Shown here piece after piece: positions 1,397-29,255 of a stretch of 29,255 bases of DNA (position 1 is its first letter; each line of letters starts with the position of its first letter). Origin of the DNA: a virus; the IMG/VR virus record IMGVR_UViG_3300048928_000617, positions 1 through 29,255 of that record; one strand, given 5' to 3'. The notes under the pieces were generated by a model that saw nothing but the letters and a program-made list of their open reading frames with translations, was not told the origin of the DNA and did not search any database. Made by a program: the position numbers and the translations under genes.

Positions 1397-3067
1397 ATGA
1401 CCCCGAGCGAATCTGCCAAGGCCTACGCACGCAGCGTGGTGGCCGGGAAGATTCCGGCCGGACGGTACATCATCCTGGCTTGCCAGCGGTTTCTGGATGA
1501 CCTGAAGCGCACGGGCCCTGACTGGCCGTACAAGTACGACGCGGCCAAGGCCGATCGCGCGGTCAAGTTCCAGGAGCTGATGCCCCACACCAAGGGCAAG
1601 TGGGCGGCGAAAAAGCAGCGCCTGGTGTACGAGCCGTGGCAGCACTTCATCGAGTGCAACCTGTTCGGCTGGGTCCGCAAGTCCACCGGCATGCGCCGGT
1701 TCCGCGAGTCCTACGAAGAGATCCCCCGAAAGAACGGGAAGTCGCTGCGCCTTGCGGCACGGGGCCTGTACCTGTTCGCCGCCGACGGCGAGGCCGGCGC
1801 CGAGATCTACTCGGGCGCCACCAGCGAAAAGCAGGCCTTCGAGGTCTACCGGCCGGCCTGGCAGATGGTTCAGAAGATGCCCGCACTTCGCGCGCGCTTC
1901 GGCATCGAGCAGTCGGGCAACCCGAAGAACCCCGGCTCCATGTTTGTCATGGAGGACATGTCGAAGTTCGAGCCGATGATCGGCAAGCCCGGTGACGGCT
2001 CCAGCCCACACGCGGCGCTGGTGGACGAATACCACGAGCACGACACCGACCACATGGTCGATGCGATGCAGACTGGCATGGGCGCGCGCGAGCAGCCCTT
2101 GCTGGGGATCATCACCACCGCCGGGACCAACCTGGGCGGGCCGTGCTACGAGAAGCGGCGCGATGTGATCCGAATTCTGGAAGGCGAGGTCACCGACGAA
2201 ACCATCTTCGGGATGATCTTCGGCATCGACGAGGGCGACCGGTGGGACGATCCGGCGAGCCTGCGCAAGGCCAACCCCAATTACGGTGTTTCGGTCTTCG
2301 AAGAGTTCCTGTTGGCGCAGCTGGCGCAGGCCAAGCGGTCTGCCAGCAAGCAAAGCGCCTTCCGCACCAAGCACCTGAACGACTGGGTGGGCGCCAAGCT
2401 CGCCTGGATGAACATGCTGGCGTGGCAGCGGCAGAAGCGGTCGTTCGACCTCGACGACTTCGACGGCTGCCGCTGCTGGGTCGGCGTCGATCTCGCATCG
2501 AAGCTGGACGTTGCGGCGGTGGTGATGCTGTTCGAGAAGGACGGCTCCTTCTACGTTGTTCCGCGCTTCTACGTGCCGGAAGCGGCGGTGGAGGAAAACG
2601 AGCGCTACCAGCTGTATGTGCTGGAAGGCCTGATGGTGGCGACGCCAGGGAACATGACCGACTACGCCTTCATCGAAGAAGAGCTGAAGGAGCTGGCGGC
2701 ACGCGGAATCGACATTCAGGACATCGCCTTCGATCCGACCCAAGCCACCTACGTCATGACCAGGCTTGGCCAAGAGGGCCTGCCAGTGGTGGAGATGGCC
2801 CAGTCGGTCCGCAACCTCTCCGAGCCGATGAAGGAAGTGGAGGCCCTGATCTTGTCCCACCAGCTGTGGCACGACGGCAACGCCGCGCTGACTTGGATGA
2901 TGGGCAACGTGGTGGCGCGGATAGACGCGAAGGAGCACGTGTACCCACGGAAGGAATCGAACGACAACAAGATCGACGGCGCGGTGGCGCTGATCATGGC
3001 CATGGCCCGCGCGATGCAAGCGCAGGACACCGGTCAAATTCAACAAGGCTTCGTGGTGATGGACTGA
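1397..3067 (+). CDS. terL: Terminase large subunit (packaging ATPase and nuclease)
   Basis: This 556-residue protein is a full-length TerL of the Terminase_1 type. The ATPase domain has a P-loop at residues 110-116 (PRKNGKS) and a Walker B acidic pair at D210-E211 in LVDEYHEH. The C-terminal RNase H-fold nuclease has the expected acidic triad: D365 (GVDLAS), D446 (AFDPTQ) and D527 (KIDGAVAL). It pumps DNA into the prohead through the portal and cuts genome ends. It starts four bases after TerS and its stop overlaps the portal ATG (ATGA), so the three genes form one translational unit. All catalytic motifs are intact. Confidence 0.96.
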   Translation: MTPSESAKAYARSVVAGKIPAGRYIILACQRFLDDLKRTGPDWPYKYDAAKADRAVKFQELMPHTKGKWAAKKQRLVYEPWQHFIECNLFGWVRKSTGMRRFRESYEEIPRKNGKSLRLAARGLYLFAADGEAGAEIYSGATSEKQAFEVYRPAWQMVQKMPALRARFGIEQSGNPKNPGSMFVMEDMSKFEPMIGKPGDGSSPHAALVDEYHEHDTDHMVDAMQTGMGAREQPLLGIITTAGTNLGGPCYEKRRDVIRILEGEVTDETIFGMIFGIDEGDRWDDPASLRKANPNYGVSVFEEFLLAQLAQAKRSASKQSAFRTKHLNDWVGAKLAWMNMLAWQRQKRSFDLDDFDGCRCWVGVDLASKLDVAAVVMLFEKDGSFYVVPRFYVPEAAVEENERYQLYVLEGLMVATPGNMTDYAFIEEELKELAARGIDIQDIAFDPTQATYVMTRLGQEGLPVVEMAQSVRNLSEPMKEVEALILSHQLWHDGNAALTWMMGNVVARIDAKEHVYPRKESNDNKIDGAVALIMAMARAMQAQDTGQIQQGFVVMD

Positions 3068-23977: not shown

Positions 23978-24265
23978 TTACCGGCTCCTGTGGCCGGCCT
24001 CCATGGCCGGCAGGTGAGACGTGCCGCCAACTCGGCTCACGAACTCGGAGAACCTGACGAAGCTGACTGCCTGCCTGTTATCGCAGTGCGGGCACTTGAG
24101 TACCGCGCCGCCCACAAGGGTGGTAAGGCCATGGCCGGGCGTGGCGGTGAAGGTCCAGCCGCAGGGCAGGCAGCTGCATTCTACGGCGGTCACCTCAAGT
24201 AGCCTCTCGGCCTCGTCGGCTTGACCATCAACGCGTAGGAGATAGAACTGTCCGGTGTTGGGCAT
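23978..24265 (-). CDS. Zinc-ribbon protein, unknown function
   Basis: This 95-residue protein (MPNTGQFYLLRVDGQADEAER) contains C30-x-C32-x2-C35-GW and, about 20 residues later, a C-P-H-C knuckle (LKCPHCDNRQAV), together a plausible structural zinc ribbon. AAGG lies three bases before the ATG on the minus strand. It is transcribed away from the SRAP gene, with a 122-base divergent gap between them. A plus-strand open frame over the same bases (23927-24202) has no such motifs and is rejected. It is the only opposite-strand gene in the right accessory region. Function unknown; DNA or RNA binding is possible. Confidence 0.62.
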   Translation of the reverse strand: MPNTGQFYLLRVDGQADEAERLLEVTAVECSCLPCGWTFTATPGHGLTTLVGGAVLKCPHCDNRQAVSFVRFSEFVSRVGGTSHLPAMEAGHRSR

Positions 24266-24387
24266 GGGCCTTCTCGTCGGAAACGGGGCCGAATCGCCTC
24301 GAGACTGAATAATATCCGTCCGCGTGTTAAGCGAGAGCAGATTTCGTCGCTCACGGCGCCTTTCGGCCCCCGTGATGTAATCCGCCC

Positions 24388-25320
24388 ATGTGCTACTCCG
24401 CTCAGATCAAGGCCGATTACCACAAGCTCGTGCGCGAGTTCGGCGCGGTCGTGTCCATGGACGAGTTCGCGGCGCTGTATGCCCACGACCCGGGCAAGAA
24501 GCGGCCGAAGACCCCGAAGGCCATGGATGATGCGTTCGCCGCGGGCAAGACCCCTGCCGAGCGCTCGGTCTGGGCGGCGATTCAGGACTGGAACGGCAGG
24601 GATGCAACAGCCTTCGAGCAGGAGCTGTTCACCCAGAAGACCCGCCTGGTCAACGCCGAGCGCGCGCTGCAGACGAAGGTCACGAAGAAGGCCGAGAACG
24701 ACGTCCGGGTGGCCACCAACAAGATCGCCCGGGCCCAGGGCAAGCTGGCCGACCTCCGGCGCACGGACCACGTGGCAAGGGACTCGCGCATCTTCCCGGG
24801 CGTGTATGGCACCGTCATCGTGTCCGAGGGTGGCAGCCGAGTGGTGAAGCCGATGCGCTACCAGTGCCGGCTCGCCGGGAAGCCGGCCAGCTACGACCAG
24901 CGCTACCCCGGCACCTACAACGCCAGGCGCGACAGCCTGGAGGGTTTCTGGCGGCCGGCCTTCGGGTACACCCACGCGCTCATGGTGGTGGACACGTTCT
25001 ATGAGAACGTCGAGGGGCCGGACGGCGGCAACCAGATAGTGCAGTTCACCCCCCGCACCGGCGATCCGATGCTGGTGGCCTGCCTGTGGTCGCACTGGGT
25101 GGATCCGGCCGGCAAGGAGCCTGATCTACTGTCCTTCGCGGCGATCACCGATGACCCGGAGCCCGAGGTCGCTGCAGCGGGTCACGACCGGACGATCATC
25201 AACATCAAGCCCGAGCACGTGGACGCCTGGCTCAACCCCGACCCGGCAGACTTGGGCGCGCTCTACTCGATCTTCGACGACAAGCGGCACCCGTTCTACG
25301 AGCACCGCCTGGCGGCGTAG
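24388..25320 (+). CDS. SRAP (YedK/HMCES) family abasic-site-binding protein
   Basis: This 310-residue protein starts MCYSAQIK, so removal of Met exposes Cys2, the residue that in this family forms a covalent thiazolidine crosslink with abasic sites in single-stranded DNA. The other catalytic residues appear present: N178 in YNARRDS, E206 in FYEN and H266 in GHDRTIINI, matching N75, E105 and H160 of E. coli YedK. It is larger than YedK (about 220 residues) owing to a charged helical insert at about 50-150. It may protect phage DNA damaged during the lytic cycle or excision. It lies among accessory genes; expression from the divergent gap is likely. Confidence 0.9.
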   Translation: MCYSAQIKADYHKLVREFGAVVSMDEFAALYAHDPGKKRPKTPKAMDDAFAAGKTPAERSVWAAIQDWNGRDATAFEQELFTQKTRLVNAERALQTKVTKKAENDVRVATNKIARAQGKLADLRRTDHVARDSRIFPGVYGTVIVSEGGSRVVKPMRYQCRLAGKPASYDQRYPGTYNARRDSLEGFWRPAFGYTHALMVVDTFYENVEGPDGGNQIVQFTPRTGDPMLVACLWSHWVDPAGKEPDLLSFAAITDDPEPEVAAAGHDRTIINIKPEHVDAWLNPDPADLGALYSIFDDKRHPFYEHRLAA

Positions 25321-25516
25321 GGCTGTTCCGACTCTTTCTCGCGCACTTGGCCTATGGTCCCAGGGTGCGGCGCGGTCGATGATTGGCATGTCGGATCCGG
25401 GAGCCGCAGGCAGCTCAGCCCGGGTGCCGGGGCGCCTGAGCAGCGCCCCGCCGACCCTTCGCGGGCCGGTTACGGCCAGTCGCGGAATCTGAGATCCCGG
25501 CCCGTATCCTGCGCGC
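25321..25516. other. Intergenic stretch with a G+C-rich hairpin
   Basis: No gene is supported in this 196-base gap. A perfect 7-bp stem GGGGCGC/GCGCCCC (25429-25435, 25443-25449) with loop CTGAGCA is visible but no T run follows, so it is not a standard terminator. A promoter for the following gene was not clear. Confidence 0.4.
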
Positions 25517-25819
25517 ATGCTTCCTCCCGACTTCCGCTGGCGTTCGGTCGCCAGCCGCCCTGATGAACTTCCGGATGCGCTCTACTGCGGCGCCACGGAG
25601 GTATTGCGCCTTCAGAAGCGCGTGGACAATCACGTCTGGTGGGTTGAGGTGGACCGTCATCTTGACGACCAGTACCGGGGGCGCCGGGACTGCACCAGCT
25701 ACGAGCAGGGCGTGATCGGGTCTGAGCTGTGGGCGGTCAGGCATCAGCAGCGGCTTCGCCTGGAGATTGACCAGCGCGAAGTGGCCCGCGCTGCCACGAG
25801 GAAGAACCGGACCTGGTAG
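25517..25819 (+). CDS. Small phage accessory protein, unknown
   Basis: This 100-residue protein (MLPPDFRWRSVASRPDELPD) is rich in Arg, Trp and acidic residues: LYCGATEVLRLQKRVDNHVWWVEVDRH forms strands, and the C-terminal RLRLEIDQREVARAATRKNRTW is helical and basic. No recognised domain. No good ribosome binding site is seen in front of ATG 25517, so the start is uncertain. It sits among right-end accessory genes after SRAP. A longer minus-strand frame over the same place (25415-25882) is a compositional shadow. Confidence 0.6.
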   Translation: MLPPDFRWRSVASRPDELPDALYCGATEVLRLQKRVDNHVWWVEVDRHLDDQYRGRRDCTSYEQGVIGSELWAVRHQQRLRLEIDQREVARAATRKNRTW

Positions 25820-25880
25820 GCAGTCAGCCGGCGTTGCCTCCGTATCGGCGCGTGCGACCCCCGGCGGCGACAGTGGCTCC

Positions 25881-26093
25881 ATGGATCAAAAGAGCATCGG
25901 CAAGGCGCGCTGGGCGCGCGCGAGGGCGGCTTTGCTATGGCAGCAGGCCGACGATCTGGACAGCATTCGCAGCGGTGACTGGCGGGCGAGGGCGACGCGT
26001 CGTCGTGGCGCTAACCGCCTCCGCGCCGAGGCCGCCCGGTTCGACGGTATCGCCAACCGGCTGCAGCCCTTGGAAGACGATGAGGCCGCTTAA
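25881..26093 (+). CDS. Small basic helical protein, unknown
   Basis: This 70-residue protein (MDQKSIGKARWARARAALLW) is Arg/Ala-rich and predicted fully helical, ending acidic (LQPLEDDEAA). The frame is open upstream to 25767, overlapping the preceding gene, but ATG 25881 gives the natural N-terminus. No clear Shine-Dalgarno is seen. No family recognised. It could be a small DNA-associated protein; evidence is weak. Confidence 0.5.
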   Translation: MDQKSIGKARWARARAALLWQQADDLDSIRSGDWRARATRRRGANRLRAEAARFDGIANRLQPLEDDEAA

Positions 26094-27127: not shown

Positions 27128-27202
27128 CCGCTCCGCAATCTCCGAAAACCTGTACGAAACACCGGCGATTGCGTGGCCTTCATTTGCGCCATTGCGGAGC
27201 GG
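27128..27202. repeat. Spaced 12-bp perfect inverted repeat near the attachment core
   Basis: CCGCTCCGCAAT (27128-27139) and ATTGCGGAGCGG (27191-27202) are perfect inverted copies 51 bases apart, 41-115 bases from the tRNA core. In tyrosine-integrase phages the att arms carry repeated binding sites for integrase or its helper proteins; that role here is inference. Confidence 0.5.
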
Positions 27203-27242
27203 AAAGGCTACCTAAGGCATTGATCTACTTGGATTGCTCGCG

Positions 27243-27289
27243 AGCTTCCCAAGCTACTGACGAGGGTTCGATTCCCTTCACCCGCTCCA
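27243..27289 (+). other. attR: 3' half of a tRNA-Gly(CCC) gene
   Basis: The sequence holds the anticodon loop TTCCCAA (anticodon CCC), the 3' anticodon strand, a T arm with loop TTCGATT closed by GAGGG/CCCTT, a 3' acceptor strand CACCCGC, T and an encoded CCA (27287-27289). No matching 5' half (expected to begin GCGGGTG) precedes it. Of the five anticodon-stem pairs, the three next to the loop (AGC/GCT) form, while the two outer ones (CG against AC) do not. That places the start of the tRNA-derived segment close to 27243. An intact tRNA should be rebuilt at the other phage end. Confidence 0.82.
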
Positions 27290-27413
27290 TATCCCCGCGT
27301 CTGGCAGGGCATGAGCTAACGGCGACGCCGGAAGTGCTTTCTTTTTTCGCTTCCAGGTGCTTAGGGCAAGTTCCAGCATTGCCTGTGCGTTCGTGGACGC
27401 GTTCAATAGCGGT

Positions 27414-28238
27414 ATGAACGAAACCGAGCTCAGGCAACAAGTGGATATCAAGATTGAGCGTGAAGACCGGCAAAGCGACATTCTTGCGCTTGAAGTGCTC
27501 GAATCCCTCGCTTCAGGGGCTGAGCGAGTTCACTGGCTGCTTGTGGAGACAAACACTTCGCTAAGACAGACCCAGGTGGAAAGCGTCCGGTATACGGATG
27601 CGACGATCCATGTGCGTGCAACGTACCTTTTCGGTGACGCGTCCAGGTTGCGTCCGGGGGATCTTGTCTCCGACATGGGAGGGAGAGTGACCAGTCACGA
27701 CCAAAGCATTCGAATCACTAACGGTGGAGTGATGGTCGATGAGGGCCTCCGTGACATGCATGTAGGGACGTTCCTGTTCCACAAAATCGTGAGCTGGGCT
27801 TCCGAATTCGACCCCTTGTTGCGTGTTGTCCCGATAAGGGTGATCGCCGGCGATGCTGGCCCTCGCAATGGGCCGCGTCGGAACAAGTTCTACGCCAACT
27901 TCGGTGTCCGGTTTATCTGGAGCCAAGAGGAGAAAGAAGGAATATCTGATTCTTCACTCACCATTGGTGACTTGGTTGCCTACCAGAATTGGCCAAACAT
28001 TCGCGTCCATCGCCGTCTAACGCCGCTTCAGCAGCTTTGGAGGACGAATGAAAGGCTGCGCAGGGAGGTAAGAGGATCGCGAAACGTTGGGCGTTATCAC
28101 AGAAAGCACTATCAGCGTATTGAGGCGCGCTTGCGTACGATTGCTTTGCTTCTGAGCTGGCCTCTTTTCGTACTTCTCGCAGTCGGCGGCTTCATCTTGG
28201 GAATGGCGTACCGGACGTGGAGCGACGCTGGAAACTGA
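27414..28238 (+). CDS. GNAT-like protein with C-terminal membrane anchor
   Basis: This 274-residue protein (MNETELRQQVDIKIEREDRQ) has a central region like a GNAT acyltransferase: MHVGTFLFHKIVSWA corresponds to the acetyl-CoA-binding loop and helix, PIRVIAGDAG to the next strand and RNKFYANFGVRF to the conserved FYxxxGF motif. Residues about 241-266 (ALLLSWPLFVLLAVGGFILG) form one membrane span, preceded by an Arg-rich segment. The catalytic substrate is unknown. ATG 27414 is chosen for lack of a ribosome binding site at the upstream GTG 27357. It lies just outside the phage junction and is clearly AT-richer than rimK, so it looks like an earlier arrival at the same tRNA locus. Confidence 0.68.
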   Translation: MNETELRQQVDIKIEREDRQSDILALEVLESLASGAERVHWLLVETNTSLRQTQVESVRYTDATIHVRATYLFGDASRLRPGDLVSDMGGRVTSHDQSIRITNGGVMVDEGLRDMHVGTFLFHKIVSWASEFDPLLRVVPIRVIAGDAGPRNGPRRNKFYANFGVRFIWSQEEKEGISDSSLTIGDLVAYQNWPNIRVHRRLTPLQQLWRTNERLRREVRGSRNVGRYHRKHYQRIEARLRTIALLLSWPLFVLLAVGGFILGMAYRTWSDAGN

Positions 28239-28361
28239 TGTGCTCCCACATCGAGTGTTAGAGATGAAGATCCGATGTTCTGTCTGTGAATGAAAGGCGT
28301 AGTCGACACGTCCGATACCCCCAGCACGCTATGCTTCGCGCTTTCCAGCCCCTGCGCCGCG
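28239..28361. other. Gap upstream of rimK
   Basis: These 123 bases hold no gene I can support. The rimK frame is open back to 28290, but the family's N-terminus begins at 28362. No convincing promoter boxes or terminator hairpin were recognised. Confidence 0.4.
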
Positions 28362-29255
28362 ATGAAACTGGCCATCCTCTCCCGCAACAGTAAGTTGTAC
28401 TCCACGCGCCGCCTGGTAGAGGCTGCACGTGCGCGCGGCCATACCGTACGCATCCTCGATCCGCTGCGCTGTTACATGCGCATCGCCGCGGATGGCTTCA
28501 CGATGCATTACAAGGGGCGTCCGATCACCGGGGTGGACGCGGTGATCCCGCGCATCGGTGCCTCGGTCACCCGTTACGGGACGGCCGTGCTGCGCCAGTT
28601 CGAGATGATGGGCGCGCGTACGCCCAACCCCTCCGATGCGATCCTGCGCGCCCGCGACAAGCTGCGTGCCCACCAGATCCTGGCCTCCAAGGGCATCGAC
28701 ATGCCGGTCACGGTGTTCGGTGACAACCCGGACGACACCGTCGATCTGCTCTCCATGCTGGGCCCGCCGCCACACGTGGTGAAGCTCAACGAAGGCACCC
28801 AGGGCCGCGGCGTGATCCTGACCGAGAAGGCCAGCGCCTCGCGCGGCATCGTGGAGGCGCTGCGCGGGCTGTATGCCAACTTCCTCATGCAGGAGTTCAT
28901 CGGCGAGGCGCAGGGTGCCGACCTGCGTTGCCTGGTGGTGGGCGATCAGGTGGTCGGGGCGATGCAGCGGCAGGCCCCGGAGGGCGATTTTCGCTCCAAC
29001 CTGCATGCCGGCGGCAGTGCCCGGGCCGCCAAGGCCAGCCGGGCCGAGCAGCTGGTCGCGGTGCGCTCGGCCAAGGCGCTGGGCCTGGGCGTGGCCGGTG
29101 TGGACCTGATCCGCTCCAGCCGCGGCCCGCTGGTGCTGGAGGTCAACTCCACGCCCGGGCTGGAAGGCATCGAGGCGATCTGCCAGGCCGACCTGGCCGG
29201 GCGCATCATCGATCACGTCGCATCTCTTAAAAAGCCAGTAAATACAAAGGGTTGA
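28362..29255 (+). CDS. rimK: RimK, ribosomal protein S6--L-glutamate ligase
   Basis: This 297-residue protein begins [20 protein letters not shown], the typical RimK N-terminus, and is about the length of E. coli RimK (300). It is an ATP-grasp ligase that adds glutamates to the C-terminus of ribosomal protein S6. Visible elements are the pre-ATP-grasp domain ([23 protein letters not shown]), the ATP-binding [14 protein letters not shown] loop, [19 protein letters not shown], and the metal-binding [16 protein letters not shown] 28362 is chosen from family alignment over 28290. It is a chromosomal gene, G+C-rich with host-like codon use, and marks the host side of the prophage junction. The window ends exactly at its stop. 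Confidence 0.95.

Follow-up and report, generated by a model that had tools for sequence, protein, structure and literature searches.

In the part of its description drawn on here, Islander takes displaced tRNA fragments accompanied by a restored tRNA as its basis, and lists 2083 islands with an anticodon-centred site (PMC4383910). Its class A islands have a 3' tRNA fragment at the far end, as does the locus described below, and an intact tRNA restored by the island, as this locus presumably has at its other end; relative to the same part of that source there is no difference in principle, and what is added is the phage family, the tRNA-Gly(CCC) target and the arm repeats (PMC4383910). Another close system, as presented in the sections of its report considered here, is Smp131, a temperate Stenotrophomonas phage with a tyrosine integrase and a 46-nt perfect repeat that corresponds to the 3' end of a tRNA (PMC3931495). 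The 3' tRNA piece is used in the same way in both cases (46 nt there, 47 nt here), but the target of Smp131 is tRNA-Thr, whereas the core in the present locus is tRNA-Gly(CCC); those sections also describe P2-like phages with repeats on one side of attP only (PMC3931495). Finally, in Xylella, a plant-associated relative, prophage-like elements have tRNAs including tRNA-Gly nearby, as here, but in the text covered the tRNA-Gly carried inside some elements is not directly involved as the insertion site (PMC2605562).

The stretch analyzed here, referred to as the window, is an IMG/VR virus record of 29,255 nucleotides, possibly a fragment; its own attL and integrase lie outside the record. We interpret the feature at 27243-27289 as an attR, left by a temperate tailed phage whose tyrosine recombinase inserted it into the tRNA-Gly(CCC) gene of a Stenotrophomonas-like bacterium, and assign this reading a probability of about 95%. 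The arrangement is ordinary and belongs to a known type of tRNA-integrated prophage. It comprises the following features:

1-27242, + strand: prophage DNA, right-hand part, with the left end beyond the record (from structural genes and similarity to the IMG/VR locus L124)
1397-3067: terminase large subunit, phage side
5177-6415: major head protein, phage side
18666-23615: long tail protein, phage side
26246-26911, + strand: DUF4760 protein, last phage-side gene before attR (Pfam PF15956, 4e-15; phrog_2284, 6e-11; membrane segments by eye only)
27130-27139, + strand: probable arm-type site GCTCCGCAAT, 113 nt left of the core, from a conserved pair; presumptive integrase binding
27191-27200, - strand: probable inverted arm-type site ATTGCGGAGC, 52 nt left of the core, from the same conserved pair; presumptive integrase binding
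27243-27289, + strand: attR core, positions 28-74 of tRNA-Gly(CCC) (its 3' 47 nt), which the prophage has displaced (exact-core comparison)
27290-28361, no strand: variable stretch from the tRNA fragment to rimK, taken as host, with a 293-aa ORF inside; no matches in the genomes searched
28362-29255, + strand: host rimK, right flank (Pfam RimK)

The sequence of the core, AGCTTCCCAAGCTACTGACGAGGGTTCGATTCCCTTCACCCGCTCCA, corresponds exactly to positions 28-74 of a 74-nt tRNA-Gly(CCC) that reads GCGGGTGTAGCTCAATGGTAGAGCTGT followed by the core, and intact genes show the 5' part GCGGGTGTAGCTCAATGG(T/C)AGAGCTGT upstream of it. ARAGORN detected no complete tRNA anywhere in the window, and a 131-nt query around the core has a single matching place in the record. 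A set of 127 distinct rows with the exact core was compared, consisting of at least 117 genome-contig loci, nine IMG/VR loci and the window. Among the matches listed, tRNA-Gly(CCC) is intact in 121 of these rows, including all 117 genome-contig loci (more such loci exist) and four of the nine from IMG/VR; the 5' part is missing in six, namely the window, L119, L121, L122, L124 and L126. At the junction the anticodon stem reads CGAGC/GCTAC as against GTAGC/GCTAC in the intact gene, so that the outer two pairs, and no others, are lost. On the left, the shared block has a sharp edge: it stops at the identical base in eight of ten distinct junctions, and in the other two it reaches two bases further out, taking in the whole anticodon stem. 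The earlier note had proposed from the window that only the 3' half of this tRNA is present, that pairing in the anticodon stem is lost at its outer two pairs and that this fixes the left edge of the shared core to within a few bases, and all of this is borne out. The exact match over 47 nt is not a matter of chance, and both a chance match and a free-standing tRNA pseudogene were rejected on account of the common left edge and of the arm repeats, which occur at the junctions and not at intact tRNAs. Two records titled Bacillus subtilis (L063) and Candidatus Eremiobacteraeota (L019) carry exactly the same tRNA-Gly(CCC), which is otherwise found mostly in Lysobacterales-type records; their titles perhaps reflect contamination or mislabelling.

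All ten distinct right-end junctions share an inverted pair of 10-mers, GCTCCGCAAT at -110 to -115 and ATTGCGGAGC at -49 to -53 (one mismatch allowed in the matching). The inverted pair was found in none of 124 distinct intact tRNAs, two of which have a single such 10-mer, and at random positions a pair so spaced occurs once in 24,400 (122 sequences). Of the 124 intact tRNAs, eight have the 10-mer as a direct pair (+31/+50 or +32/+51), and each of the eight is a left-end locus. The arm-type repeats are accordingly seen on both sides of the core, to the left in the window and to the right in relatives. Judged from this pattern of sequence conservation, the inverted 10-mers are probably arm sites to which the integrase would bind. 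No arm repeat was detected 3' of the core in the window, nor at the Stenotrophomonas rhizophila locus L022. At L119 the core (1249-1295) is followed by a decayed phage right arm, with one 10-mer at +31 and no integrase match in the DNA covered, which suggests repeated use of the site, in serial occupancy.

The phage side of the window encodes, in addition to the structural proteins given above, an SRAP-domain protein; ten window proteins were taken into the PHROGs scan. The nearest relative found is G005, the record of the IMG/VR locus L124. Segments 24042-25453 and 25489-26089 are 93% identical to L124, and 27188-27291, comprising the arm end plus core, is about 80% identical; the similarity is patchy, amounting to ~2 kb of the 9.3 kb of L124 left of the core and little else. 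Near matches to window bases 1-25000 came from four phage records, and involve the terminase region of Pseudomonas phage phi1 and the major capsid gene of the three others. The segment 26090-27187 is unshared, and the DUF4760 gene that it contains in the window has no match in L124 or L119. By eye, these two loci hold other short genes in its place. This variable slot before attR is possibly a place for lysogeny or exclusion genes.

On the opposite side of the core, host DNA is established from rimK rightward only. The window rimK is 98.4% identical in DNA to that of L124 and 93% identical to that of S. rhizophila L022. Among the matches listed, 75 of 117 loci have rimK 3' of the intact tRNA-Gly(CCC) and in the same orientation, the gap between the two genes ranging from 15 to 3158 nt across loci with an intact tRNA. 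In the window the two are 1072 nt apart, and in L022 913 nt. The remaining 42 of these 117 listed loci show no rimK match, 17 of them covering at least 3 kb downstream and 25 less, and because 3 kb or more of downstream DNA gave no such match, the 17 have a different gene order. The uninterrupted arrangement that the earlier note had predicted, with tRNA-Gly next to rimK, thus exists at L022, where the two are 913 nt apart and arm repeats are absent, as well as in the loci with rimK downstream. Its label for the ORF at 27357-28238, a GNAT-like gene, found no backing: at the thresholds applied, the ORF matches no family of Pfam, PHROGs or NCBIfam, and its 293-aa protein has none in 247 family genomes (searched with no positive control).

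An unlikely reading, but one that has to be weighed here, is that the tRNA fragment belongs to an older element, such that 27290-28361 would be the remnant of an earlier phage or island and the junction would join two elements instead of phage and chromosome. In its favor, the DNA of this 1-kb stretch has no match in 91 genus genomes (a search that also had no positive control), the sequence between core and rimK differs in L124 and L022, and the decayed right arm of L119, with its lack of an integrase match, suggests serial occupancy. These points are countered by the core of the window, after which no arm repeat occurs, by the ORF, which matches no phage family, and by the gap between tRNA and rimK, which varies even where the tRNA is intact. 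The seven bases after the window core (TATCCCC) also follow the core in L127, a phage left end; they may be a trace of an earlier phage and are too short to judge.

The interpretation of the feature as an attR between phage and host can be followed to the other end of the prophage in relatives. Arm region and core together were found in at least four of the 91 genomes of the genus to which the S. rhizophila genome belongs (G074, G039, G076 and G052), this being a lower bound that rests on the matches listed, and one that leaves out any locus whose arm has diverged so far that it matches in the core only. In all four, another copy of the block, full or partial, lies upstream on the same contig. 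The intact tRNA-Gly(CCC) lies 40.5 kb from attR in G074 and 41.7 kb from it in G052, only the ends being compared, in G076 an intron divides the left-end copy of the tRNA, and in G039 the two ends are only 4.4 kb apart and the integrase is shortened. The last of these loci (L156; G039:C1:3538500-3548000) is a 4.4-kb mini-element between an intact tRNA-Gly(CCC) and attR, which represents either a decayed prophage or a small satellite.

A tyrosine integrase of ~349 aa is encoded just inside tRNA-Gly(CCC) in nine of nine left-end loci, one of them intron-split (L077, L120, L123, L125, L127, L154, L156, L157 and L159). These integrases show 77-87% amino acid identity to that of G005, over 206 aa in the case of the G039 copy (L156), and all three integrases scanned match PF00589. 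G005 itself has its integrase at 1066-2115 and its attR at 41839-41885, and 78 relatives of this integrase were found among phage records, all at less than 60% identity. No integrase match was obtained in the window or in the right-end loci L119, L121, L122, L124, L126, L155, L158 and L160. The expectations of an intact tRNA-Gly about one phage length to the left and of an integrase near the opposite end have therefore been realized in relatives, the former in G074 and G052 and the latter in the left-end loci and G005. We infer that the lost left end of the window is the same as the left ends of these relatives.

Starting from what was observed, i.e. the identity of the fragment, both ends in relatives, the position of the integrase, the empty sites and the arm repeats, the following course of integration can be proposed. 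The attP of the phage would carry the 3' 47 nt of tRNA-Gly(CCC), and recombination in the shared block would join the 5' half of the host gene to the phage copy. Because of this joining, the tRNA would be rebuilt whole at attL beside the integrase gene, and the host's own 3' part would be pushed to the far end, at 27243-27289 before rimK. The core site of the integrase would probably be the stem-flanked anticodon block AGC-TTCCCAA-GCT, and its arms would be the GCTCCGCAAT 10-mers, in an inverted pair left of the core and a direct pair right of it. The sublocations used by integrases are reportedly the subject of Williams 2002. Our best guess is that the crossover occurs at or near the anticodon, and the left edge common to the junctions fits, at the level of sequence, a core made up of the anticodon stem and loop. 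A comparison of attL with attR, made to place the crossover within the block, found the paired ends identical throughout the core.

This identity of the paired ends also accommodates a crossover further right in the block than the anticodon, e.g. in the T loop, which we regard as improbable. A T-loop crossover site would leave a shorter shared block, and the block observed starts three pairs into the anticodon stem in eight of the ten junctions and spans all five pairs in two. Its extent fits the anticodon-centred site of class A, as defined in the part of the Islander description used (PMC4383910). That the junction is an assembly chimera, in which a phage contig and a host contig meet at the tRNA, is scarcely credible: the IMG/VR record is possibly a fragment and tRNA repeats are able to cause misjoins, but the succession of phage end, core and rimK recurs in a separate IMG/VR contig (L124, with rimK at 98.4%) and in the genome contigs of G074 and G052. 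The attR reading gives the host-side boundary of a Stenotrophomonas-type prophage together with its target gene and candidate integrase sites, which is useful for annotation and expected.

The split tRNA-Gly(CCC) at the attL of G076 is interrupted after AAGC by a 2614-nt group II intron (L157:418-3031), which matches Rfam RF02012 and RF00029 and encodes reverse transcriptase, maturase and HNH domains. A complete tRNA-Gly(CCC) is contained in this intron, 15 nt ahead of the probable initiation codon of the intron protein. Within the attL (L157:379-3140) the intron sits inside the core, right of the anticodon loop, and an excising phage could carry it away if the exchange takes place at the anticodon loop.

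We identified ten such introns in nine genomes (L157, L195, L196, L197, L198, L199, L203, L204, L209 and L211). The intron DNA, including its tRNA, was searched in 398 genomes of the order, and the intron protein alone in 91 genomes of the genus, 369 of the class and 398 of the phylum, these sets overlapping. Because the DNA query contained the tRNA, the tRNA cargo of L195-L199 does not count as independent evidence; L203, L204, L209 and L211 were recovered with the protein query alone. The ten share one insertion position within a tRNA-Gly gene, and each carries a whole tRNA-Gly, just upstream of the reverse transcriptase gene, with an anticodon matching that of the interrupted gene (nine CCC, one UCC). 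The UCC case (L209/L220, G845:C49) is found in a tRNA-Tyr/Gly/Thr cluster, whose tRNA-Gly gene it splits; at C21 of this genome another of the introns is inserted in tRNA-Gly(CCC). The protein frame of L198 is broken or shifted at the start. A motif complementing the last six bases of the 5' exon, GCTTGG, is found in a hairpin loop at 419-497 in every one of the introns, with a second copy in L211. In a tree of related reverse transcriptases (n=23), a single branch with support 100/100 divides the ten tRNA carriers from 13 relatives that have no internal tRNA. In one of these relatives (L214), two whole tRNA-Leu genes closely follow the reverse transcriptase gene.

Between the internal and the interrupted tRNA, 2 to 8 of the 10 bases of the anticodon stem differ, as do 0 to 6 of the remaining 64. 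The five stem pairs are kept in all ten internal copies and in nine of ten interrupted genes, that of L211 having four. The altered stem may make the intron-borne tRNA a poor target for the intron. Among the nine hosts, in each of the eight searched (all except G1256) the intron-borne tRNA is the only full-length tRNA-Gly(CCC) match above 85% identity; weaker matches, which may have any anticodon, lie below that value. The flanks place three of the intron hosts nearest a Rhodanobacter MAG. Two further loci retain the intron-type tRNA-Gly as a whole tRNA gene, with the 3' or 5' part of the intron missing: L200 (G394) has the 5' part of the intron and the tRNA with no protein after it, near a contig end, and in L201 (G335) host DNA is followed by the tRNA and the first part of the protein, where the contig ends. 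These look like stages of intron loss, but with both so near contig ends the assembly may account for part of the pattern. The spare copy is presumed to be functional and to shield the host.

These observations incline us, with some reservation, to the view that two unrelated mobile elements compete for the anticodon arm of tRNA-Gly as a landing site, each with its own means of repair. The phages bring a 3' half, and a clade of group II introns, whose insertion point follows base 2 of the 3' strand of the stem, brings a whole spare tRNA-Gly of the same anticodon just before the reverse transcriptase, which would leave the host a working tRNA even if splicing does not occur. The window displays the phage half only of this picture. 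The literature searched, mostly outside subscription journals, gave no description of a tRNA carried by a bacterial group II intron, nor did the portions of PMC8919778 and PMC4390854 considered.

The prophage finding is in this sense a pointer, as its target gene led to the tRNA-carrying group II introns. If confirmed at the bench, these would represent a retroelement that insures its host against its own damage, and selection for harmless insertion would become directly measurable.
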